A stretch of DNA of 56,394 nucleotides, taken from Thraustochytrium sp. TN22. Lineage: Eukaryota; Sar; Bigyra; Thraustochytrida; Thraustochytriidae. Each line of letters opens with the position of its first letter. Within the stretch, counting starts at the first letter, position 1. Of the stretch, positions 8,365 to 26,320 are shown piece by piece. Position numbers and translations under genes: made by a program. The notes below the pieces were generated by a model. The model saw only the letters and a list, made by a program, of their open reading frames with translations. It did no database searches and had not been told where the DNA came from. The stretch lies in NCBI GenBank assembly GCA_013306675.1, contig JABLUY010000238.1, forward strand, positions 1 through 56,394, written 5' to 3'.

Positions 8365-10236
8365 TTAGGAGAAATCGTGCATGACTTGGGTGACCATGGA
8401 CATGAGCCCGTTCACGGCGCGCTCGGATTCGTCTGCGTCGTGGCCGTCCTCGTCGAGGGCGTCGGCCTGGTCAGCCATGGCGTCCGTAAAGTCCATGCGG
8501 TTGAGCACGGCTTCGATGCTGTCCATGAGCTGTTTGTCCTTGCGCTTGAGGCGAGGACGCCGCCCGCCGCGAGGAAGCTTGCTTCCGGCGGCGGCGGCGC
8601 GGGCCTCTGGCTGCGCTGCGGCGACTGGCGGCTTGAGCTTGAGCTTGCCAGAGCACGTCTGCTTGGTGAGCCGCAGCAGGGCCTCATCCTCCGACTCACC
8701 ACGCAGGTCCTCCGAGTGGACGGTGAGCGGGTGCTTGAGCGCATACCGCAGCGCGGAGGTGGCCGAGGTTACCACGGCTGGGTTTGGCTTGGGCCGCGCC
8801 CGCCGGGCCTCTGCATCGGTCGGTGGACGGAAGAGCGCCAACTGCGCGCGGAGCTGGGCCGTGGTTGCTCCTGCAGACAGTTCGAGGTCGTCCGAGTCCT
8901 CCGGGCCCTCATCGCCACCGCCCTGCGCAGTCGCAGTCGCGGCAGGCAGGACTTGCTGGGCCACGGAGGGCGGCGCAGCACTGCTTCCGAGCAGCGAAGG
9001 CTCCGTTAAGAAGACGCTGGCAGCGGTCGTGGGCCCCGCGCCGGCCTCCTTGGCCTCCGTGGCCTCCCGGTCTGCCTCTGTGGAGTCCTGCGAAGCGCAG
9101 GCCTCGTCCGCGAAGGACTGCAGCGCGAGCTTGGACTCGGCCGTGACAACGCTCTCGCCATCCTCCAGCAAACGGCGGCCGCGCTCCTTCCACTCGCGCG
9201 GATTGAGCATGCGAAGCTCGGCCACCTTGGTGACTGTGAAGCCAGCGTACATGCCGCGCGTCGGAGTCGGGCCCCGCTGATGCAAGCGGCGATCGGGCGC
9301 GTCTGTGACGACGTTGATCACCTCACGAGGCTGCGAGTGCGAGAACGATCGGCTTGCGCCCGGTTCGTGAGACGGGCCGCTGCCGCTGCCGGCGCCGCCG
9401 GCGCCGCCGGCGCTGCCGACGTGCGCGCGGCGAGGAGCAGCACGGCCCTGGGCGGTAATTGGGTTCTCATACAAGAGCACTTGGACGAGCTCGGGCGCCT
9501 GCGTGAGCGGGGCGAGGTCCTGGTGCGTGTGGATGCAGTTACCCACCAGGCTGAGCCACTCGAGCGAGGGAAAGTCAACGTCCTCCGGGAAGGAGGCCAC
9601 CTTGTTGTGCGAGAGGTCTAATTCGCGCAGTCGCGGCGCCTCCGACAGCCATCTGAGGCTGTCGAGGTCCTGCAGCTTGTTATCGGAGAGGACGAGGAGC
9701 TCGAGCGCCAAGAAGGCACACATGTTCTCCGGGAGGCGCGTAAGCTCGTTGCACGTGAGGTCTAGCTCGCGCAGGCGTTCCAGGGATGCGAGCTGCGCCA
9801 ACGCCTCGGGCGTAAGCGCGTTGAAGGAGAGGTCAAGCACCGTGAGCATTGGAAAGGGACGCGCAGCGGACCAGGAGATGGAAGCGATCTTGTTGTCCGG
9901 CATGCGCAGCTCCTCGAGCGCATGCAGGTTGGTCAGCTGCGCGATGTCAAGCTCATTCTCTCCAAGATCTGCCGCGCTTAGCCGGCCGAAGAAGGCGAGG
10001 TCCTCGCACACCGCGGAGCGCAGCCCTCTCTTGACCAGCTTGACCCTGGTCGCCTCATCCGGAAACTCCGCCCCGGACGCCTCCAGCAATAGGAAGCCGT
10101 CCAGCTGCGTCGCCGCGGGCGCCCTCGGCCGCCGCTTGCCAGTTCTCACACCGGAGGCCACGACTCCTGCGCCTGCCGACTCGACCACCTGTGAACCGTG
10201 CTCGCGCCCACGTACCGCGAGCGTCTGTTGCTCCAT
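8365..10236 (-). CDS. XRRA1-like leucine-rich repeat protein
   Basis: 623 residues from ATG 10236 (MEQQTLAVRGREHGS); the frame is open further upstream but without an ATG. After a basic N-terminus, residues about 35-260 hold a conserved lead-in (DGFLLLEASGAEF, VKLVKRGLRSAV) and six or more LRRs (LEELRMPDNKIASI, LTVLDLSFNALTPEALAQL, LRELDLTCNELTRLP, LELLVLSDNKLQDLDSL, LRELDLSHNKVASFP, LEWLSLVGNCI). The order and wording resemble animal XRRA1, a poorly understood LRR protein named for an X-ray response. The C-terminal half is low-complexity and Ser/Ala/Glu-rich with a basic patch (RGGRRPRLKRKDKQLMDSIEAVL). It lies head-to-head with the TPGS1-like gene, 489 bp away. LRR fold is certain; XRRA1 orthology is likely. 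Confidence 0.75.
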   Translation of the reverse strand: MEQQTLAVRGREHGSQVVESAGAGVVASGVRTGKRRPRAPAATQLDGFLLLEASGAEFPDEATRVKLVKRGLRSAVCEDLAFFGRLSAADLGENELDIAQLTNLHALEELRMPDNKIASISWSAARPFPMLTVLDLSFNALTPEALAQLASLERLRELDLTCNELTRLPENMCAFLALELLVLSDNKLQDLDSLRWLSEAPRLRELDLSHNKVASFPEDVDFPSLEWLSLVGNCIHTHQDLAPLTQAPELVQVLLYENPITAQGRAAPRRAHVGSAGGAGGAGSGSGPSHEPGASRSFSHSQPREVINVVTDAPDRRLHQRGPTPTRGMYAGFTVTKVAELRMLNPREWKERGRRLLEDGESVVTAESKLALQSFADEACASQDSTEADREATEAKEAGAGPTTAASVFLTEPSLLGSSAAPPSVAQQVLPAATATAQGGGDEGPEDSDDLELSAGATTAQLRAQLALFRPPTDAEARRARPKPNPAVVTSATSALRYALKHPLTVHSEDLRGESEDEALLRLTKQTCSGKLKLKPPVAAAQPEARAAAAGSKLPRGGRRPRLKRKDKQLMDSIEAVLNRMDFTDAMADQADALDEDGHDADESERAVNGLMSMVTQVMHDFS

Positions 10237-10725
10237 GCTGCGTACCGTCGCGCCGTGGCAGCGTGCTCTGCCCGAGCCTCGACGAGGCCAGCCGAGGCTG
10301 CCGCCAGGATGATAATGGTGGCCAGGGCCCGGGTGAAGTTGAGCGCACACCTCCGATCCATCCACCGATCAGCCGCGCTCTTCCGCACGCGCTTCGAGCG
10401 ACCATGGCGGCGACCGGCCGGCCAGTCAGCCACCTGTGGCGACGGCCTGTGCGCGTGGCATCATGATGCTCAGCTGGCCCGGCCGCCGTCCTAAATGGTC
10501 TACTACCGGATAGTCTGCCAGTGCTGTGCACTGCCAGTGCAAGTCTAGGTTCGAGCTGGGTGGGCGGTCAAGTGGCGCCTGGGCGGGCCCTGCCTGCGGC
10601 GGGCTTGGTCGCTTGTCAGGCCAAAACCGCCACCGCGGTCGAGCGAGCTCAGGCTGCCGCTGTCGAGCTCCGGGCGCGAGCGCGCGCGCTCGCGTGCGTG
10701 CGTGCGTGGCGTCTCCGCCGCTGCG
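10237..10725. promoter_or_regulatory. shared divergent upstream region (XRRA1-like / TPGS1-like)
   Basis: The 489 bp between two divergent ATGs must hold both promoters and 5' leaders. A GCGTGC/CGCGCG-rich segment lies near 10680-10712. I see no convincing TATA box. The role is inferred from gene arrangement only. Confidence 0.4.
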
Positions 10726-17311: not shown

Positions 17312-20300
17312 ATGCGGCAGGCGTCCGGCGAGGGCGCGCGGACGCGAGGCGGGCGCGCGGCGGAGCGCGCGGCGTGGCGCTCGAGCAGCGGCGCGCGCGC
17401 GGCCGGCGACGCGGCCGCGGCGGAGAGCGGCGCGGCGTACGAGCGCGCCTGGCAGGCGGCCTACGCGCAGGACAGCGGCATGGACGGCCTGGTGGGCGGC
17501 GGGGTGTGGCGGACGGCCACTCTCGCGGCAGACCACCGGGCGCAGGCGCTCCGGGACGAGGCCGGCCTCGGCGGCGGCAGCGGCGGCGGCGGCGGCGGCG
17601 GCGGCAGCGGCGGAGCTGCGGCGCGCAGCAGCAGCGGAGGGTCCGGCAGCAGCGGCGCCAGTGGCAGCGGCGTGAGGCGCGACAGCAAAGGCAACGGGTC
17701 CAGCGGCGCCGGCGCGCTGCCCCTGCCCCGCATGACGTCGCGCCTCGCCTCGGCGGTCGGCGCGCTGCTGAGCGAGGGCGGGCCCACGCGCCTCGTGCTG
17801 GCGCGCGGCGTCGAGACCAACGCGGCTCGCGTTGCGCCCTGCGGCACGGTCATCACCACCTGCGAGCGCGCCAAGTGGCCGGCCGGCACGCACTGTGTAG
17901 CCTGCGGCGACGACGGCTTTCCTTTCGCCTCGCACGGCGCTAGTGGCGCCAGCGGCAGCGACGGCGACCGCAACCGCGACCTGGACCGCGACTTCGACGA
18001 CGAGGACGAGGACTCCGCCGCCTCGCCCAAGGTCGGGCCCGTCCAGCAGCAGCGGAGGCAGCAGCAGCAGCAGCAGCAGCAGCGGAGGCGCCGCCGCCAG
18101 CGCCGCGAGCTCACGGGCAACAGCGAGGACGGCTCTGGAGGCCTGGACGCCGTGCTCGAGGGCGAGGACCCAGAGGAGGACAAGACCGAGGCCGAGGACG
18201 AGGATGGCACCGGCGAGGACCAAGAAATTCTGTATTTTGAGGTGCGCCTCGCGCGCCTCGAGGTCGGCTGCGAGCTGGCCATCGGACTCGAACTGGCGGA
18301 TACGCCAGACCGCATCAACTACCCAGGCTGGAACCCGGGCGCCTGGGCGCTGCACTCGAACGGCCGACTCTTTGCCGGCTCAGCCGCCAGCATGGCCAGC
18401 ACCGCCGGCGGCCAGTTTTGCCCCACTTTTGAGCCCAACGACGTCATCGGCTGCGGTTGGGACCCGTGCAAGCGCCACATCTTCTTTACGCGCAACGGCA
18501 AGCTGCTCGGCGTCGCTTTCCGCGTGGCGCACGGCGAGCGCGACCTCAAGGCCATCCCGGCCGGTGCCAACCTCTTCCCTGTGATCGGCATCCGGTCGCC
18601 CTGCGTGCGCGTCTCGGTCAACTTCGGCACCGACTCCTTTGTCTGGGACAGCTCGCGCCTCGGCCGCGTGCGCCGCGCGCGCCCGGCCATCATTACGCCC
18701 GTGCACTCCAAGATGAGCCTGCTCAAGTCCAAGCAGGCCAGCAGCTCCAGCTCCAGCGAGTCGCTCCTCACGCTCACCTCCGCCAGCCGCTCCCCGTCGC
18801 ATACCAGCACGGAAACTGATGGCGAGGCCCCGCGCATCGCGGAGACGATCGCGCGCACCATCGACCGCGGGCTGGGCCTCAACATGCTGCGCGAGGCCAA
18901 CAATGAGCCCGGCCGCCGCCTGTTGCGCTCCCTGCGCCGTGAGTCGGATGCGCTCACGCCGGCCTCTCCGGCGTCCGACTCCGAGCCCGAGCCGGCGGCG
19001 CCTGCGGCCGACCCGCGCGCGCTGCTCATCGGCGCCATCCAGGCCGATCAGGCGCAACGCCCGCCGCTCACGCACGCGCAGTCCGTCCCGGTGCTGCGCT
19101 CGCGCTCGGCGCAACCCGCTTCGGGTCACCTCACCGAGGCCGTCGACCTCACCACGGAGATGAGCTCGCGCATCAACAACTTGCTACAGCACACCAAGAA
19201 GAGCGCGCCCACGCTTTCCTCGGCCGTCTCGGCCGCCTCGACCGCCTCGCCCGACACCGCGGCTCTCGCCGCTGTCAGCTCGCTGCGCCAAGTCGACATC
19301 GCGATGGCGCCGGCGCTCAGCCAGGCCGTCGAGCAGGAGGTGGCTGCCGAGTCCTCCGAGGCGCTGCGCGAGCGCCTCGAGCAGCTGCGCTCCGACGTCA
19401 TGGAGCTCAACGCGCAGCTCGAGGTGTTCGCCAACTCCGACCGCGACGAAGCCGCCTCCGCGCTGGACGATGCTAGCCTCACGGAGGAGAAGTGCATGCT
19501 GCTGCGGCAGCGCATCTACAACCTCATCTGCGAGACGCCCGAGGACGCCATTCTCGGCGATCTCCTGCTTCTCAACGACAAGCTGCTCGCCGTCATCGAC
19601 CACACGGCGCTCTTCAAGGCCCGCGTCGAGGCCGGCTTGCCGCCCATCTCACAAAGGGAGGCCGAGGAGCACTTTGCGGCCGCCAACACCTCGTACGGCC
19701 TATCCAATGGGGTTGCCGATAGCACGCAGGAGTTTTTGGCCGCGCTGCGCGGCGGCACGGAGCAGGCGCAGCTCAACGCGGCGCGCGCGCTCTCCTACCT
19801 CGTGCGCGACTGCGAGAAGAATGCCGAGCTGCGCACCTGGAGCCGCCTCAATGCCTACCAGGAGGGCGCCATGAGCACGCTCGCCACGCTTTTTGAGAGT
19901 TCGCGCTGCAGGCAGAACCTCAAGCTCAAGCACGCTGTCGCCACCGCGCTCGTCGCCATCGTCTCCGGCTCCTGGGTCAGCACGGACGGTGCCGCGGCCA
20001 GCATCGTGGCCAGCGGCGCCTCGGCCAGCGCCACGGACCGCTCTGCCGGCCGCGGCGCCGACTCCGGCTCGCACTCTTCCGGGTCGGCGCTTGAGTCGCG
20101 GCCCATCGCCGCGCGCGCGGCCGTGCATCGCCGGCGCCGGCCTTCCATGGGCTCGGAGGAGGACGACCGCATGCCGACGTCGGCCTCCTCGCTCAGCACT
20201 ACCGAGGCGGCGGCGGCCGCCTCGGCGGCCGCCTCGAGCGAGCGTGACCCGCGTCTCGACCCGCGTTTCGTTGCCCGCAGTTTCACGGCCGTGCTGGAGA

Positions 20301-23300
20301 CCATTGTTGCTGCCTGCGGCGTCCTCGTGCGAGACCGCTGCTACTGCTGCGCGGTGCCCACCTGGCCCGGCGACAAGCGCGAGGGCTGCGCGTCCATGAT
20401 GCGCGATGCCTCGCTTGCCATCGCCAACCTCTGCATGATCCTCGCCTACCGCGACTCGATGCGCCTGGCGTCCGTTAGCACGCTCTCGGATGAGGACCAG
20501 GTCGGCGAATGGGTTCCGGTCATGACCGAGACCGTCACCGGCCTCCTGCTGGAGATTTGCCTCGCGCCCAAGCCCAAGATCGCGCGCGACGCCAAGGGCC
20601 GCCGCCGCTCGCGCGCGGCCAGCGACGAGGACACGCAGCGCCAGCGCCAGGACGGGGACGGGGACGCGAAGGATGCGCCGCTCAGCCCGGAGGAGGAGCA
20701 TCGCGAGACGCTCAGGGCCTGGAGTGAGGCGCGCCAGTTCGCTATTTACTCCGTCTCGGTGCTCTGCCAGTACGTCCAGGCCCACCAGGTACTCGTTGAG
20801 GAGGGCGCGCTGGAGATGCTGGCCACGATCTTTCGCAAGGGCGACGACATCTCCATCTACCACGCGTCCCGCGCCGTCTTCTGGCTCTCAGCGGCCGCCG
20901 CGCCTGCGCTGATCGGGGAGATCAGCGGCGCGGTGCCCTTTGCCTATCAAGACGTCGACCTCGTCACGGTCGGCTGGATCGTCGGCAAGCTCGTCAGCAG
21001 CGGCACGGTCGAGGCCGCCTTTAGCGTCACGGACCGCACGAGCCTGGCACCCGCCACGCGCACCAGCCTGGCCGCCGCGCTTGCCATCTGGTCCTCGCTG
21101 GATATCTGCGAGCGCAAGCTGCTGGAGCTCGACGCGCCGCGCGTGCTCGGCAAGCTTGCCAGCCACTGCCTCTCGGGCGTCGGCGAGAGCAAGGTCACCG
21201 TCGTGGTGCGCGAGAACAGCGAGTCCTCGGGCGACCCCAACACCTCGGGCGCCAGCGAGAGCGGCGGTGCGCGCCCCGGCGCGGAGGGCGCCGCGGCCGG
21301 CGATGCCACCAACGAGGCCGGTTCCGTGGCCTCCGGCTCGGGCGTCTCGACCTCATCGGCGACCGGCGCTGTGAACGCGGCCACCGAGGTGCTGGACTCC
21401 ATGGCGCGCCCCGAGTCGGTTCTGAACGGGCCGGCGCCCGCCGCCGCGGTGCCCATGTCCGCGACCAAGCATCTTCGCCGCCCGAGCGTGCATACCTCGT
21501 CCTCGAGTCACAGTCACCAGGTCTTCTCGGAGGACAGCAGCGCCGGGCCCAGCACGTCGAGCAGCGACGACATGGACGGCGTGCTCGGCCGCCTTGCCGG
21601 CCAGCACCAGGCCGGCGTCGACGACGATGCGCTGTCTGCGGAGTCGCGTGAACGCCGCGAGGAGCTGCGCTTTCTGGCGGCCACCTTCATGCACATGGCC
21701 GAGGCGTTGGCGCGCCGCAAGCGCCGCAAGCGCCGCAGCCGCCAGGGCGGCGTCGCGGCGCCCGAGGATGCGCACTACGGCGGCGACCTTTGGGAGGTGA
21801 TCGTCACGCACGCCAAGGCGCTCACCCGCCTGTGCCGCGCCCAGGACGACCTGACCACCTTCTTTACCGTGCAGGCCGTCTTTCAGTTGAGCAAGCTGGG
21901 CCGCGAGACGTGCGAGGAGCTGGCCAAGCAGTCTGTGGCCAAAGTGATTATCCGCGTGCTGCGCCAGACCGCCGACGACGCCTCCGTGGCGCCCCTTGGC
22001 ACGCCTTCGGCCAGCGAGACGGCTCGTATGCAGCTGCGCCTCGCCGCGGCCACCGCTCTCGGCAACATGGCGAGCGCCTCCCTGGACGCGGCCACGCGCG
22101 TGGCACTCGCTGGTGGCATCGAGTACGCGCTCGAGATCATTCGCGTGCGCTTTGGCCTGCCCGAGGACCTCGAGGCCAATGTCCACCGGCCGTGCTCGCT
22201 CGCGGACCCCCCGGGAGGTACCGAGATCGAGGTGGTCTTCCAGGCGGTGCGCACGCTGACTTGCTTCTACGGGCGCATGGCCAAGGAAGTCGCCATCGGC
22301 AAGCGCTGGGAACGCCTCGCCGAAAACTTCATCCCCAACGCCACCACGTGCGTCTACACGGCGGCGCGCCTGCTCTCGTACCCGCTCTCGGTCATGCAGG
22401 CCGAGCTCTGCCGCCTGCTGGCGGCCATCGCCGAGTGCCCTGGCAGCGAGATCTTCCGCCCGCAGATCGCGGACTGCGCGCTGCACGAGGTCGTGGAGCT
22501 CGGCCTGGGGCTCGGCGGCAACGGCAACGTGTCAAGCGACTCGGCCTTGCACGAGCGCGTCGAGGAGGTGCTCATCGCGCTCGGATTCGAGGACGGTATC
22601 GATGACGTGCGCCGCGCCGCCGGCAGCTCCGACATGCTGCGCACCTGGGGCCGCATCCAGGCTTCGCTTGAGTTCCAGTCCCTCATCTGCATCGCGCTCC
22701 AGCTCCGCGCCGCCGAGTACTGGGGCATCTCCCTCGAGTCGACGCACGACGCCGCCAAGGAGGCCGGCGCGCGGTCCGTCTTTGCTGAAACGCTCGAGCG
22801 CTTCTTCGCCTCCACCGCCGGCTCCTCGGGCAAGGCGTACCGGCCGCCACTCTGGCTGCGCGGCCTCGTGGGTGCCGACGTGGACCCTACGCCGCCCGAC
22901 GAGGTCGACTCGCGGCTGCGCAACCTCTCGCACCGCTACATCACCTCGTGGGCGAAGCAGATTGGCTTTGACCTGGACGAGTCCGCCTTTGGTCCGCTTC
23001 GTAGCGAGCAGACCATTGGGATGGACGGTATCACGCGCTCCATGCCGGCGTGGTATGTGGACATGAGCCGGCAAATCATGCCCAACCTCCTGGAGCGCCG
23101 CCGCTTTTTGCTGCCGTACGCGCGCGAGGGCCACCGCAACGCCTCTTCCAAGGCGATGCTGCCCGAGGCGCCTCTCGGTATCATCATCCCGTCCAGCCTC
23201 GACGTGACGAAGCAGTTCGGCGCCGTGCTTGACCGCATCATCAGGTCGCACGAGGAGCAGGAATCCTTCGTCAACAGCAACTCCATGCGTGATCCAGGTC

Positions 23301-26300
23301 TGCCCACGCAGTGGTCGCTTTGCGTGCGCGACTGCGTCAAGTGCTCGGCTGACCTCTTTGTGGAGAACCTTCTCGACTATCTGGCACGCTTCCCCCGCAT
23401 CAGCTCGCTGATCTTCATCGGGTCGCCGGACCCGGATGCGCGCATCGACATCCGCGTGATCGCGCGCGTCATTCGCGCGCTGCCCACCTCAGTGCGCTGG
23501 CTCACGCTCGACAACGTGCTCTGCCGCGGCAAGGACGTTCTCATGGTCGCCCGCGCCGTGCAGTCGCGCCGCGCCGCCACACTCAACCTGGCCGGTCTCT
23601 CCATCCGCAATGGCGGCCTCTCCGGTCGCGACCTGCTACCGCTGCTCACGCTCCTGCAGGCGCCCGGCCCGCGCGGTCCGAACGGCGAGGTGGCAGGCGT
23701 GCCGCCGCGCTTGCGCGTGCGATGGTTGGACCTCAACGGCAACAACCTCACTGACGTGCACTGCGCGCTCATTCTCGAGGCTGTGGCCAGCGCCGCCACG
23801 CCGTCGTGGGCCGTACGCGGCATCGACTTCTCCAACAACGCCATTCTCGGCTTTCCGACGAAGATGTTCGAGGTGCTCTTCCGTGAGGACCACGACCACG
23901 AGACGATGCCGCTGCTGGGCGGGCCTACGTGCGCCGGCACGCTTCACGAGCTCTTCCTCAGCAATATGCCCATCGGCTCGCGCGCAGCCGCCGTGCTGCT
24001 GCGCCGCCTCGCCTCGCCGCACTCCCGTCTTCGCGCGCTTGGCCTTGGCAACTGCCGCCTCGCCGGCGACAACACCATGGTCTGCGCGCTCACTGAAGTG
24101 CTGGAGAAGGCGGAGCATCTCAGCGAGCTCGACCTCTCCGGCAACCGCCTCGGCGAGGTGGCTGGCAAGGAGATCTCGCTCGCGCTGCGTCACCGCTGCC
24201 CGCATTTCATCGGTCTCCGAGGCTGCAAGGGCCTTCGCAAGGAGGATCGCGAGTTTGTCGATGAGGCCACGTGCGCCGAGCGCGCCACCTGGGCCGCGCA
24301 CCTGCAGTCGCTCGAGGAGCCTGAGCTTCTCGAGCGCGCGCAGTCTGAGTTCGTGGACACGCCCAGCACTGGCAACTCGCGCCGCGGCCAGTGGCCGTCC
24401 TCACAGTGGGACTCGGACTCATCCATCTCGCTCAGTCGCATGGAGAGCTCCACGAGCTTCGGCGCCAGCAGCGCCGTGGAAGGCCACAGCGCCACCGTCT
24501 CGAGCGGCACGGCCTACGCCGCCAGCTCGCCCTACGGCTTTGGTGGGCCCAACTCCGAGTCTGCGCCCTCGCTCATGCCCAACCCGGGCGCCGACACCCA
24601 CCCCATGGTGCGCGACATTTTGCGCGACGAGCGCGAGGGCTTTCGCCCGCGCCTTAGCGTGCTCTTCTCGGTGCCGCTCGTCCACTTTGACAACGATGGC
24701 CAGCCGGCCTCGTGCGCCAGCATCGACTTCGAGGCGGAGCGCCGCATGCTCATGCAGACCTTCCAGGACGCCAAGCGCGACATCAACCTCTCCTTCGGGT
24801 TCGCCACCGTTGACAGCCTGCGCTCCGAGGTCACCCTGCGCAGCCGCGCTATCCACTACTCGGGCCACGGCAGCCGCGACGCCCTTCTCTTCGAGGACCA
24901 GGTCGGCGGCGCACGCCCGGTGGCCACCAAGACGCTCCGCGACCTGGCCGGGAGCGGCAACAATGGCGGCATGTCCAAGGTCAAGCTCGCGTTCGTTTCG
25001 GCCTGCCACTCGGAGTTCGCCGGTCACGCCTTTGTGGATGCCGGCGTCCCGCACGTGGTCTGCGTCAAGGTGGCTGAGCGCATCCAGGACACGGCCGCCC
25101 AGGCGTTTACGCGTTGGTTCTATCTCGAGCTCGCCATTGGCGGCACGGTGCGCCGCGCATTCGAGGTCGCAACCCAGGCCGTGCGCGCGCAGGAGGAGGC
25201 GCAGACCTCGGGCGCCGCGGCCGCCCTGTCGCCCAACATCCGGCCCAACCAGGCCAGCAAGTTCCTCCTGCTCCCGGAGGACGCCGACCACGACGTGCCC
25301 ATCTTCCCTGGCCGCGCCGAGCTCAAGCGCTGGCCTTCGGGCGACGCCACCGCAGCCGGCCTGCCTGAGGACCAGGACCGCCTCGAGGAGCGCCGCAGTC
25401 TCTGGCGCGGCAGCATCGTCTCGGCAGCCCTGCCCAAGGAGTTCATGGGCCGCAATGTCCAGGCCTATGACCTCCTCACGGCCATCATGACCCGCCGCAT
25501 CGTCGCCTGCACCGGCCCGTCCGGCGTCGGCAAGCTCTCCCTCTCCTCCTTCGTCATCAATTACGCGCTGCGCCGCGGCAACTTCCCGCAGGGCGCAATC
25601 CTTATCCGGCTGAACGAGGTCGACTCGGTCAGCACGCTCGTCAAGAAGCTCTGCGACCGCACCATCGACCCGCACAGCGCCGAGTCCGGCTCCAGCATGC
25701 GCTCCTACAAGTCCGCCTCGCAGCTTCTGCAGGGTGAGGATGAGGAGTTCCGCCTGGAGCACCTCTTTGAGCTGCTGCGCTATCGCAAGTGCCTGCTGCT
25801 CTTTTCCGGCTGCGACAAGATCGACAGCAAAGACCCCACCTTCCGCTCCTTCCTCGGCCGCATGCTCGACGAGGTCGAGGGTATCTGTATCCTGCTTACC
25901 AACACCAAGGGCTTCCCGCGTGTCCCCGGCCACGCTGTCACCAACGTCAAGCTCGCCTCGTTGCACCACCGCGACGCCGCGCTCCTCTTTTTGCGCCTCG
26001 CGCTCTCCTCCTCGCTCTGCACGCCCAAGGACATTGCCCAGCTCATGTCCTCCGCTGCGGGCAACAGCGGCGCCGCGCCGTACACGGTCCTTGACGCCAT
26101 CGGGGAACACCCATTCCTCAAGCCTCTCGAGGGCAATCCGCGCCGCATCTTCGATGCCATCAGCTCGCTCGATGCCAAGCACTTTTCGACGATCATTGCG
26201 CAATGTCAGGTCGTCATCGCCAACACGACCCAGGTCGTGCGCAACGTACCGAGCTTGCCGCTTCAGCCCTCTGTCTCCACATCAAGTGCCCCTCCCGCAG

Positions 26301-26320
26301 CGACCGTGCCCAAGCCTTAG
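17312..26320 (+). CDS. giant SPRY-ARM-LRR-CHAT-NTPase protein (NLR-like)
   Basis: One uninterrupted frame of 3002 residues from ATG 17312. Regions in order: Gly/Ser-rich N-terminus with Gln and acidic runs (1-300); SPRY-like domain (about 305-446; YFEVRLARLEVG, HSNGRLFAG, FTRNGKLLGVAF); Ser-rich linker; ARM/HEAT-like helical region with Ser-rich inserts (about 780-1760); an RNI-type LRR block (about 2060-2310; WLDLNGNNLTDVHC, LSELDLSGNRLGEVAG); a CHAT caspase-like domain (about 2430-2665) with the His-Cys pair His2519 (HYSGHG) and Cys2565 (SACHSE); and a P-loop NTPase of STAND type (about 2690-2960; GPSGVGKL at 2735-2742, LLLFSGCDKID near 2829-2838, ICILLTNTKG as sensor). CHAT domains are clan CD proteases (separase/caspase fold), and STAND NTPases are switch modules of immune and cell-death receptors. 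I infer a signal-activated protease, sensing by SPRY/ARM/LRR. The frame could be several genes only if undetected introns exist; none are apparent. Confidence 0.9.
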   Translation: MRQASGEGARTRGGRAAERAAWRSSSGARAAGDAAAAESGAAYERAWQAAYAQDSGMDGLVGGGVWRTATLAADHRAQALRDEAGLGGGSGGGGGGGGSGGAAARSSSGGSGSSGASGSGVRRDSKGNGSSGAGALPLPRMTSRLASAVGALLSEGGPTRLVLARGVETNAARVAPCGTVITTCERAKWPAGTHCVACGDDGFPFASHGASGASGSDGDRNRDLDRDFDDEDEDSAASPKVGPVQQQRRQQQQQQQQRRRRRQRRELTGNSEDGSGGLDAVLEGEDPEEDKTEAEDEDGTGEDQEILYFEVRLARLEVGCELAIGLELADTPDRINYPGWNPGAWALHSNGRLFAGSAASMASTAGGQFCPTFEPNDVIGCGWDPCKRHIFFTRNGKLLGVAFRVAHGERDLKAIPAGANLFPVIGIRSPCVRVSVNFGTDSFVWDSSRLGRVRRARPAIITPVHSKMSLLKSKQASSSSSSESLLTLTSASRSPSHTSTETDGEAPRIAETIARTIDRGLGLNMLREANNEPGRRLLRSLRRESDALTPASPASDSEPEPAAPAADPRALLIGAIQADQAQRPPLTHAQSVPVLRSRSAQPASGHLTEAVDLTTEMSSRINNLLQHTKKSAPTLSSAVSAASTASPDTAALAAVSSLRQVDIAMAPALSQAVEQEVAAESSEALRERLEQLRSDVMELNAQLEVFANSDRDEAASALDDASLTEEKCMLLRQRIYNLICETPEDAILGDLLLLNDKLLAVIDHTALFKARVEAGLPPISQREAEEHFAAANTSYGLSNGVADSTQEFLAALRGGTEQAQLNAARALSYLVRDCEKNAELRTWSRLNAYQEGAMSTLATLFESSRCRQNLKLKHAVATALVAIVSGSWVSTDGAAASIVASGASASATDRSAGRGADSGSHSSGSALESRPIAARAAVHRRRRPSMGSEEDDRMPTSASSLSTTEAAAAASAAASSERDPRLDPRFVARSFTAVLETIVAACGVLVRDRCYCCAVPTWPGDKREGCASMMRDASLAIANLCMILAYRDSMRLASVSTLSDEDQVGEWVPVMTETVTGLLLEICLAPKPKIARDAKGRRRSRAASDEDTQRQRQDGDGDAKDAPLSPEEEHRETLRAWSEARQFAIYSVSVLCQYVQAHQVLVEEGALEMLATIFRKGDDISIYHASRAVFWLSAAAAPALIGEISGAVPFAYQDVDLVTVGWIVGKLVSSGTVEAAFSVTDRTSLAPATRTSLAAALAIWSSLDICERKLLELDAPRVLGKLASHCLSGVGESKVTVVVRENSESSGDPNTSGASESGGARPGAEGAAAGDATNEAGSVASGSGVSTSSATGAVNAATEVLDSMARPESVLNGPAPAAAVPMSATKHLRRPSVHTSSSSHSHQVFSEDSSAGPSTSSSDDMDGVLGRLAGQHQAGVDDDALSAESRERREELRFLAATFMHMAEALARRKRRKRRSRQGGVAAPEDAHYGGDLWEVIVTHAKALTRLCRAQDDLTTFFTVQAVFQLSKLGRETCEELAKQSVAKVIIRVLRQTADDASVAPLGTPSASETARMQLRLAAATALGNMASASLDAATRVALAGGIEYALEIIRVRFGLPEDLEANVHRPCSLADPPGGTEIEVVFQAVRTLTCFYGRMAKEVAIGKRWERLAENFIPNATTCVYTAARLLSYPLSVMQAELCRLLAAIAECPGSEIFRPQIADCALHEVVELGLGLGGNGNVSSDSALHERVEEVLIALGFEDGIDDVRRAAGSSDMLRTWGRIQASLEFQSLICIALQLRAAEYWGISLESTHDAAKEAGARSVFAETLERFFASTAGSSGKAYRPPLWLRGLVGADVDPTPPDEVDSRLRNLSHRYITSWAKQIGFDLDESAFGPLRSEQTIGMDGITRSMPAWYVDMSRQIMPNLLERRRFLLPYAREGHRNASSKAMLPEAPLGIIIPSSLDVTKQFGAVLDRIIRSHEEQESFVNSNSMRDPGLPTQWSLCVRDCVKCSADLFVENLLDYLARFPRISSLIFIGSPDPDARIDIRVIARVIRALPTSVRWLTLDNVLCRGKDVLMVARAVQSRRAATLNLAGLSIRNGGLSGRDLLPLLTLLQAPGPRGPNGEVAGVPPRLRVRWLDLNGNNLTDVHCALILEAVASAATPSWAVRGIDFSNNAILGFPTKMFEVLFREDHDHETMPLLGGPTCAGTLHELFLSNMPIGSRAAAVLLRRLASPHSRLRALGLGNCRLAGDNTMVCALTEVLEKAEHLSELDLSGNRLGEVAGKEISLALRHRCPHFIGLRGCKGLRKEDREFVDEATCAERATWAAHLQSLEEPELLERAQSEFVDTPSTGNSRRGQWPSSQWDSDSSISLSRMESSTSFGASSAVEGHSATVSSGTAYAASSPYGFGGPNSESAPSLMPNPGADTHPMVRDILRDEREGFRPRLSVLFSVPLVHFDNDGQPASCASIDFEAERRMLMQTFQDAKRDINLSFGFATVDSLRSEVTLRSRAIHYSGHGSRDALLFEDQVGGARPVATKTLRDLAGSGNNGGMSKVKLAFVSACHSEFAGHAFVDAGVPHVVCVKVAERIQDTAAQAFTRWFYLELAIGGTVRRAFEVATQAVRAQEEAQTSGAAAALSPNIRPNQASKFLLLPEDADHDVPIFPGRAELKRWPSGDATAAGLPEDQDRLEERRSLWRGSIVSAALPKEFMGRNVQAYDLLTAIMTRRIVACTGPSGVGKLSLSSFVINYALRRGNFPQGAILIRLNEVDSVSTLVKKLCDRTIDPHSAESGSSMRSYKSASQLLQGEDEEFRLEHLFELLRYRKCLLLFSGCDKIDSKDPTFRSFLGRMLDEVEGICILLTNTKGFPRVPGHAVTNVKLASLHHRDAALLFLRLALSSSLCTPKDIAQLMSSAAGNSGAAPYTVLDAIGEHPFLKPLEGNPRRIFDAISSLDAKHFSTIIAQCQVVIANTTQVVRNVPSLPLQPSVSTSSAPPAATVPKP
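18054..18082 (+). repeat. (CAG)n poly-Gln tract in the giant protein
   Basis: Two short CAG runs separated by an AGGCAG interruption encode Gln-rich sequence just before the SPRY-like domain. Confidence 0.8.

Follow-up and report, generated by a model that had tools for sequence, protein, structure and literature searches.

A 3002-residue thraustochytrid protein with SPRY, LRR, CHAT and degenerate P-loop regions as a candidate NLR-like sensor-protease

The window analysed here is the whole 56,394-nucleotide stretch of contig JABLUY010000238.1 from Thraustochytrium sp. TN22 (assembly GCA_013306675.1). It contains a gene of 3002 codons whose product carries, in this order, a SPRY domain, a long helical region, leucine-rich repeats (LRRs), a predicted CHAT protease domain and a degenerate P-loop domain. 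The coordinates of these features, and of three proteins from the same genome that are compared with it below, are collected in Table 1. Other genes in the window encode adaptin, SART-1 and, close to the 3002-codon gene, a separate LRR protein (positions 8368-10365, reverse strand; LRR_8 at 59.3 bits).

Table 1. Features of the 3002-codon gene (positions in the window) and of three compared proteins (positions in their own loci)
Feature	Position	Strand	Remarks
Whole gene	17312..26320	+	one open frame, 3002 aa
SPRY domain, RanBP9/10 type	18233..18628	+	residues 308-439, PF00622
Helical region, weak ARM/HEAT-like repeats	19694..22591	+	residues ~795-1760, bounds by eye
LRR, ribonuclease-inhibitor/NLRP type	23930..24196	+	best stretch, residues ~2207-2295
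CHAT caspase-like protease (predicted)	24728..25204	+	Pfam stretch, residues 2473-2631, PF12770
His2519, presumed catalytic pair	24866..24868	+	YSGHGS; model residue 73
Cys2565, presumed catalytic pair	25004..25006	+	VSACHSE; model residue 119
Degenerate P-loop (STAND/NB-ARC-like) domain	25424..26191	+	residues 2705-2960, bounds by eye
Walker A	25514..25537	+	GPSGVGKL, residues 2735-2742; Lys2741 kept, Leu for Ser/Thr
Walker B position	25793..25810	+	LLLFSG, residues 2828-2833; Ser2832 for Asp
C316 protein	L010 4232-8230	-	receptor-like; EGF, CHAT, degenerate NTPase
C398 protein	L011 4996-7752		CHAT, P-loop NTPase and SH2 in one frame
C310 protein	L016 3942-6248		CHAT-like, P-loop NTPase, STAT-type linker, SH2

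No stop codon interrupts the frame. GC3 stays between 0.83 and 0.94 across every one of the 15 full 200-codon blocks, and a GTRAGY donor-like motif occurs once, at codon 543. In 200 dinucleotide-Markov copies of the window, the longest open frame had 741 codons (mean 421). The 179 open codons 5' of the ATG, with GC1/2/3 of 0.771/0.782/0.715, look non-coding. The unbroken frame described in the initial annotation is thus borne out by the absence of stops, the even codon-position composition and the single donor-like motif, and as far as the DNA can tell the gene is a single long coding exon.

When the whole protein was scanned with Pfam, SPRY alone exceeded its cut-off and CHAT was missed; the protein was then scanned in pieces. 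In the piece scan, the SPRY domain is well above its cut-off (E 1.3e-14, 54.8 bits), in agreement with the initial annotation, and its nearest solved structures in the PDB are Ran-binding proteins 10 (E 8.8e-13) and 9. The genome contains 26 SPRY stretches, several of them inside single frames of more than 5000 residues (for example, C439:108495-119327). Since the genome is rich in both SPRY stretches and giant frames, this part of the protein may be ordinary scaffold.

The helical region, which is interrupted by low-complexity linkers, had been described as ARM-like, and this description is weakly supported. Among the seven pieces scanned, one matches Arm and another matches HEAT_PBS, but both matches are below their cut-offs (13.0 bits against 20.6, and 13.2 against 20.9, respectively); four of the seven have no Pfam match, and the region has no PDB match under E 0.88. 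Ten helical segments were scored for self-similarity, giving 991 against 926 +/- 28 in shuffles, a value reached by 13 of 1000 shuffles, and a control set of segments from other domains showed no excess; this is weak evidence for repeats because the segments were picked by eye. A single-sequence AF2 model of residues 1440-2340 is largely helical, with a mean pLDDT of 41.7, too poor to decide anything about the fold.

The LRR claim of the initial annotation was upheld, although LRR_6, the model proposed for checking it, scores below its cut-off (19.6 bits against 23.4). In the piece scan LRR_1 (PF00560) exceeds its cut-off of 20.6 bits with 26.8 bits, though each repeat taken singly is below it. 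Among solved structures, phmmer ranks first an entry titled "leucine rich repeat protein" (E 8.1e-18) and then ribonuclease/angiogenin inhibitor (E 1e-15), with NLRP3 further down (E 1.7e-8). A protein search of the genome with the helical and LRR stretches gave no second copy.

Several lines of evidence agree on the CHAT domain. In the piece scan PF12770 scores 39.8 bits, well above its cut-off of 24, and the domain is also recovered in the profile search of the genome, and a profile built from a four-row alignment of the core (A4), that is, the CHAT and NTPase parts, matches PDB 8tl0 at E 3.3e-11. The same alignment was used as input for AF2, which gave a core model with a mean pLDDT of 62.3; in its CHAT half (1-210), 15 of the first 21 ten-residue blocks have a pLDDT of 70-90. 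Foldseek's five top-ranked matches to the model are all chains of 8tl0, a SAVED-CHAT filament (E 4.8e-10 to 8.8e-9), and the structure prediction that had been suggested as a check on the CHAT fold therefore returned that fold. In this fold the His and the Cys are expected directly after core strands; His2519 directly follows strand 67-72 of the model and Cys2565 follows strand 113-118. In the sequence the pair is present as annotated. On these grounds, the CHAT part is a predicted protease. A link to metacaspases had also been proposed, and this found no support: the CHAT piece has no C14 match in Pfam at E <= 1, and C14 matches lie elsewhere in the genome. Separase was likewise rejected as an identity, because the protein has no C50 match and the genome's separase sits at another locus found by the CHAT profile (C44; C50 at 253.8 bits).

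The final domain had been called a STAND NTPase. Its P-loop is present, but, among the matches listed for this piece, no STAND, NB-ARC or AAA model is above its cut-off (nSTAND1, E 6e-4, 20.0 bits against 27.1; NB-ARC, E 1e-3, 18.8 bits against 23.5), and the Walker A Ser/Thr, the Walker B Asp and the sensor Arg, whose position is occupied by Thr2865, are all lost. The chain terminates about 60 residues past its GNP motif, and beyond the NTPase the Pfam piece scan (E <= 1) found neither a winged helix nor C-terminal repeats. In the NTPase half of the core model (from 251), ten-residue blocks have a pLDDT of 26-77. After the chains of 8tl0, the remaining Foldseek matches among the best 50 of 1473 are P-loop ATPases: Apaf-1, CED-4 and Dark (E about 1e-5 to 1e-4) are interspersed with ORC, RFC and AAA+ proteins, and TM-scores by query length are at most 0.33 in these 50. 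The NTPase half thus has the fold of a P-loop ATPase, but the matches do not clearly favour STAND. Judged by its motifs, the domain is most likely a pseudo-NTPase, and since key catalytic NTPase positions are missing, the protein is probably not its own nucleotide switch. Accordingly, of the "self-contained sensor-switch-protease" that had been put forward, the sensor parts and the caspase-like protease fit the domains, but "self-contained" is unsupported, the NTPase lacking its key positions.

The protein sequences of the 37.9-Mb assembly were searched with the core. Note that few candidates were scored and introns were ignored, so that the resulting counts are lower bounds. In addition to the gene itself, the search recovered C316 (E 3.9e-22), C398 (E 8.8e-19), C87 (E 1.5e-5) and C310 (E 0.005). 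In the same genome, the model of the PUFA synthase PfaA (TIGR02813) scores 2539.7 bits over adjoining stretches of one frame, against a cut-off of 1010.1 that was passed in none of the 14 control genomes. PUFA synthase is a hallmark of labyrinthulomycetes, and the match supports, short of proving, the labyrinthulomycete origin implied in the initial annotation.

The relatives differ in their input parts. C316 consists of a hydrophobic N-terminal stretch, an EGF domain (above cut-off), a transmembrane-like stretch, CHAT (60.2 bits) and a degenerate NTPase domain whose NB-ARC score is 23.3 bits against a cut-off of 23.5 in the Pfam scan and 26.5 bits, above the cut-off, in the genome search; when it is aligned to 8tl0, the GH and NAC motifs coincide. 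It is likely to be a single-pass EGF-bearing receptor with a CHAT domain. By eye, the part ahead of the EGF domain resembles a discoidin-type fold, which was named by no search. In C398, CHAT (52.9 bits), AAA_16 and SH2 are all above their cut-offs, and the SH2 domain, which carries the FLVR arginine, has STATa as its nearest solved structure (E 6.4e-5), followed by STAT6 and Src. The CHAT domain of C87 is above the cut-off and contains a large insert, and this protein matches no NTPase model.

The position of C310 is less secure. Its AAA_16 and SH2 matches are above their cut-offs, but its CHAT-like piece (14.6 bits against 24) and its STAT linker (23.7 against 27) are below theirs; the solved structures nearest to its SH2 domain are STATs (E 0.01). 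A search with C310 recovered itself and the 3002-codon gene (E 0.007), but not C398 or C316. By sequence its kinship to the family is weak and leans on the domain order that it has in common with C398.

Three further loci were inspected by eye for a CHAT domain, and none was seen. C28 has two SH2 domains in one frame, and C434, another SH2 locus, is presumably Spt6-like. C332 (L028 2684-6736) is a P-loop protein outside the family, with NB-ARC above its cut-off, intact Walker A and B motifs and apparent C-terminal repeats, and appears to be a more canonical STAND-like protein.

Active-site motifs were compared in the five proteins, four of which have an NTPase domain, by eye from the sequences and in a MAFFT alignment. 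Four of the five (the 3002-residue protein, C316, C398 and C87) have an intact CHAT His/Cys pair, the His of C87 lying ahead of the insert and being left unaligned by MAFFT. In C310 an ungapped reading places Thr and Gln at the two positions, whereas MAFFT moves a nearby Cys into the column; the His is lost and the Cys probably so, and C310 is a possible pseudo-protease relative. As to the NTPase, the Walker A, Walker B and sensor Arg positions are all kept in C398 and C310. In the 3002-residue protein, Leu stands in for the Walker A Ser/Thr, Ser for the Walker B Asp and Thr for the sensor Arg. C316 retains the Walker B Asp, but its Walker A Lys has become Arg and its sensor Arg has become Ala. 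The loss of the sensor Arg alone means little, because Lys occupies that position in C332, which does not belong to the family and whose Walker A and B motifs are intact. A GNP-type motif is found in the 3002-residue protein, C316 and C398 (as GHP) and is absent from C310. The two proteins with a damaged NTPase thus have an intact CHAT pair, and the Walker motifs are intact in the one whose CHAT pair is dead. As it comes from only four proteins, we take this apparently complementary pattern of dead sites as a lead.

Searches were extended beyond this genome. In a scan of prokaryotic genomes, 315 stretches matched a pattern, and one of them encodes a relative (L031, 1179-1996, on a contig filed under a Phycisphaerae metagenome-assembled genome). 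It is 50% and 47% identical to C316 in two frames, the stretch that would hold the CHAT His is unmatched and a short piece is repeated. The contig is probably a mis-binned eukaryotic one that carries a decayed relative. If this is true, the family is not confined to the genome of Thraustochytrium sp. TN22. Four plasmid records also matched, each over 30-38% of the query and on the CHAT side only, and scans of viral_contigs gave pattern matches among which no relative was confirmed. PADLOC and NCBIfam models at E <= 0.01 gave nothing for the cores of the 3002-residue protein, C398 or C316, and three weak P-loop matches each for that of C310. A gasdermin partner was looked for with PF04598, which has no match in the genome at E <= 1.

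The reading that we favour, tentatively and at a little less than an even chance, is that the protein is a SPRY- and LRR-bearing sensor-protease of a small NLR-like CHAT family in this thraustochytrid. Under this reading, a ligand would be bound by the SPRY and LRR parts, which together with the helical scaffold would keep the protease inactive. Ligand binding would let the degenerate NTPase domain dock into an assembly that is driven by C398, and perhaps C310, as the nucleotide-competent relative; the assembly would gather CHAT domains and switch on substrate cleavage, and the output could be a danger, self/non-self or death response. The protein would then probably require a nucleotide-competent partner, a partnership suggested by the complementary motifs of the four proteins. 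The differing input parts of the relatives (EGF and transmembrane-like stretches in one, SH2 in others) strengthen a receptor-like reading. Against it, no PADLOC model matches the core and PF04598 finds no gasdermin, so that neither names a substrate or a pathway, and the core is C-terminal with the sensors upstream, which departs from an effector-NOD-repeats order. The likeness to an inflammasome that had been suggested may be kept as an analogy.

The main rival, which we consider unlikely though a serious contender, is that the large N-terminal scaffold governs the CHAT protease directly, the P-loop remnant serving as a structural cap, so that neither an oligomer nor a nucleotide switch is required. 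The loss of the NTPase motifs agrees with it, as does the TPR-CHAT protease of type III-E CRISPR, which acts in complex with gRAMP according to the available part of PMC9729208. However, Lys2741 and the P-loop fold are retained, and the CHAT domain is paired with an NTPase domain in four of the five family members, which suggests a common role.

Improbable in our view is a protease with no immune role, acting in housekeeping or developmental signalling (for instance in the cell cycle, at the cell surface or through phosphotyrosine), whose folds are merely common with those of immune receptors. The relatives with SH2 and EGF domains do resemble general signalling proteins, the SPRY domain is of the RanBP9/10 type, and separase, another match of the CHAT profile, is a cell-cycle enzyme. 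On the other hand, the ribonuclease-inhibitor-type LRR and the combination of CHAT with a P-loop domain resemble NLRs, and divergent sequences with differing input parts would fit a receptor family. It is very improbable that the frame comprises two or more genes (for example, SPRY-helical-LRR and CHAT-NTPase), separately transcribed or spliced: a low-complexity Ser-rich linker lies between LRR and CHAT, and the relatives have CHAT-NTPase without SPRY or LRR, but the 3002 codons are free of stops, GC3 is even through the linker and the one donor-like motif lies at codon 543.

The favoured reading of an NLR-like sensor-protease can be extended to a network in which protease activity and nucleotide switching are split over partners in mixed complexes. 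The 3002-residue protein and C316 would be sensor-proteases with dead NTPases, C398 would be competent in both respects and C310 would be NTPase-competent with a dead protease, and intracellular, surface and phosphotyrosine signals would be linked to one caspase-like output. We regard this extension as doubtful and hold it lower, because the kinship of C310 is weak and C310 lacks the GNP-type motif. If the system is real, a CHAT-P-loop core with interchangeable SPRY-LRR, membrane-receptor and SH2 inputs and complementary dead sites would constitute a testable NLR-like system in thraustochytrids. To our knowledge, infection sensing and caspase-like death are poorly known in protists outside animals, plants and fungi.

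In searches of an open-access library we did not encounter the full domain order, the SH2- or receptor-type relatives or the split of dead sites, and queries combining the CHAT domain with STAND and SPRY, with stramenopiles or with SH2 returned nothing. For CHAT domains in protists the only return was a paper that, from its available part, concerns Chlamydiae; titles and the beginnings of abstracts on thraustochytrid NLRs or immunity mention no such proteins, and "CHAT" does not occur as a whole word in PMC8195603. Receptors joining CHAT and an NTPase domain are nevertheless already known. The available parts of PMC12881547 and PMC10197012 describe CHAT-bearing NLRs of fungi and the activation of gasdermin by a CHAT protease; those of PMC10907252 and PMC10952713 (a table) mention CHAT proteins among bacterial systems of conflict or defence, and that of PMC11417357 treats SAVED-CHAT.

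As far as the available parts of these sources go, the fungal CHAT NLRs resemble the present protein in joining a caspase-like CHAT domain, an NTPase and sensor parts in one chain, but their protease is N-terminal, they carry WD40, ANK or TPR repeats and they often have a gasdermin gene close by. In the present protein, in contrast, SPRY and LRR precede a C-terminal CHAT-NTPase part with a degenerate NTPase, and the genome has no PF04598 gasdermin. Bacterial SAVED-CHAT (PDB 8tl0) and the TPR-CHAT of type III CRISPR have in common with it the CHAT fold and the positions of the His and Cys motifs, whereas the input is a second-messenger-binding SAVED domain in the former and a guided RNA complex in the latter. 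We know of no LRR, SPRY or P-loop parts in either. The protease fold is distantly related to that of separase (C50), from which the protein differs in having no C50 match in a genome with a separase of its own. In animal NLRs, which may carry LRR and B30.2/SPRY domains, and caspase-1, a ribonuclease-inhibitor-type LRR, SPRY, a P-loop domain and a caspase-like protease are likewise all involved, but the caspase is a separate protein, and the domain order and the condition of the NTPase differ. Plant NLRs have evolved sensor/helper splits; if the favoured reading is true, it would suggest that CHAT receptors have evolved such splits as well.
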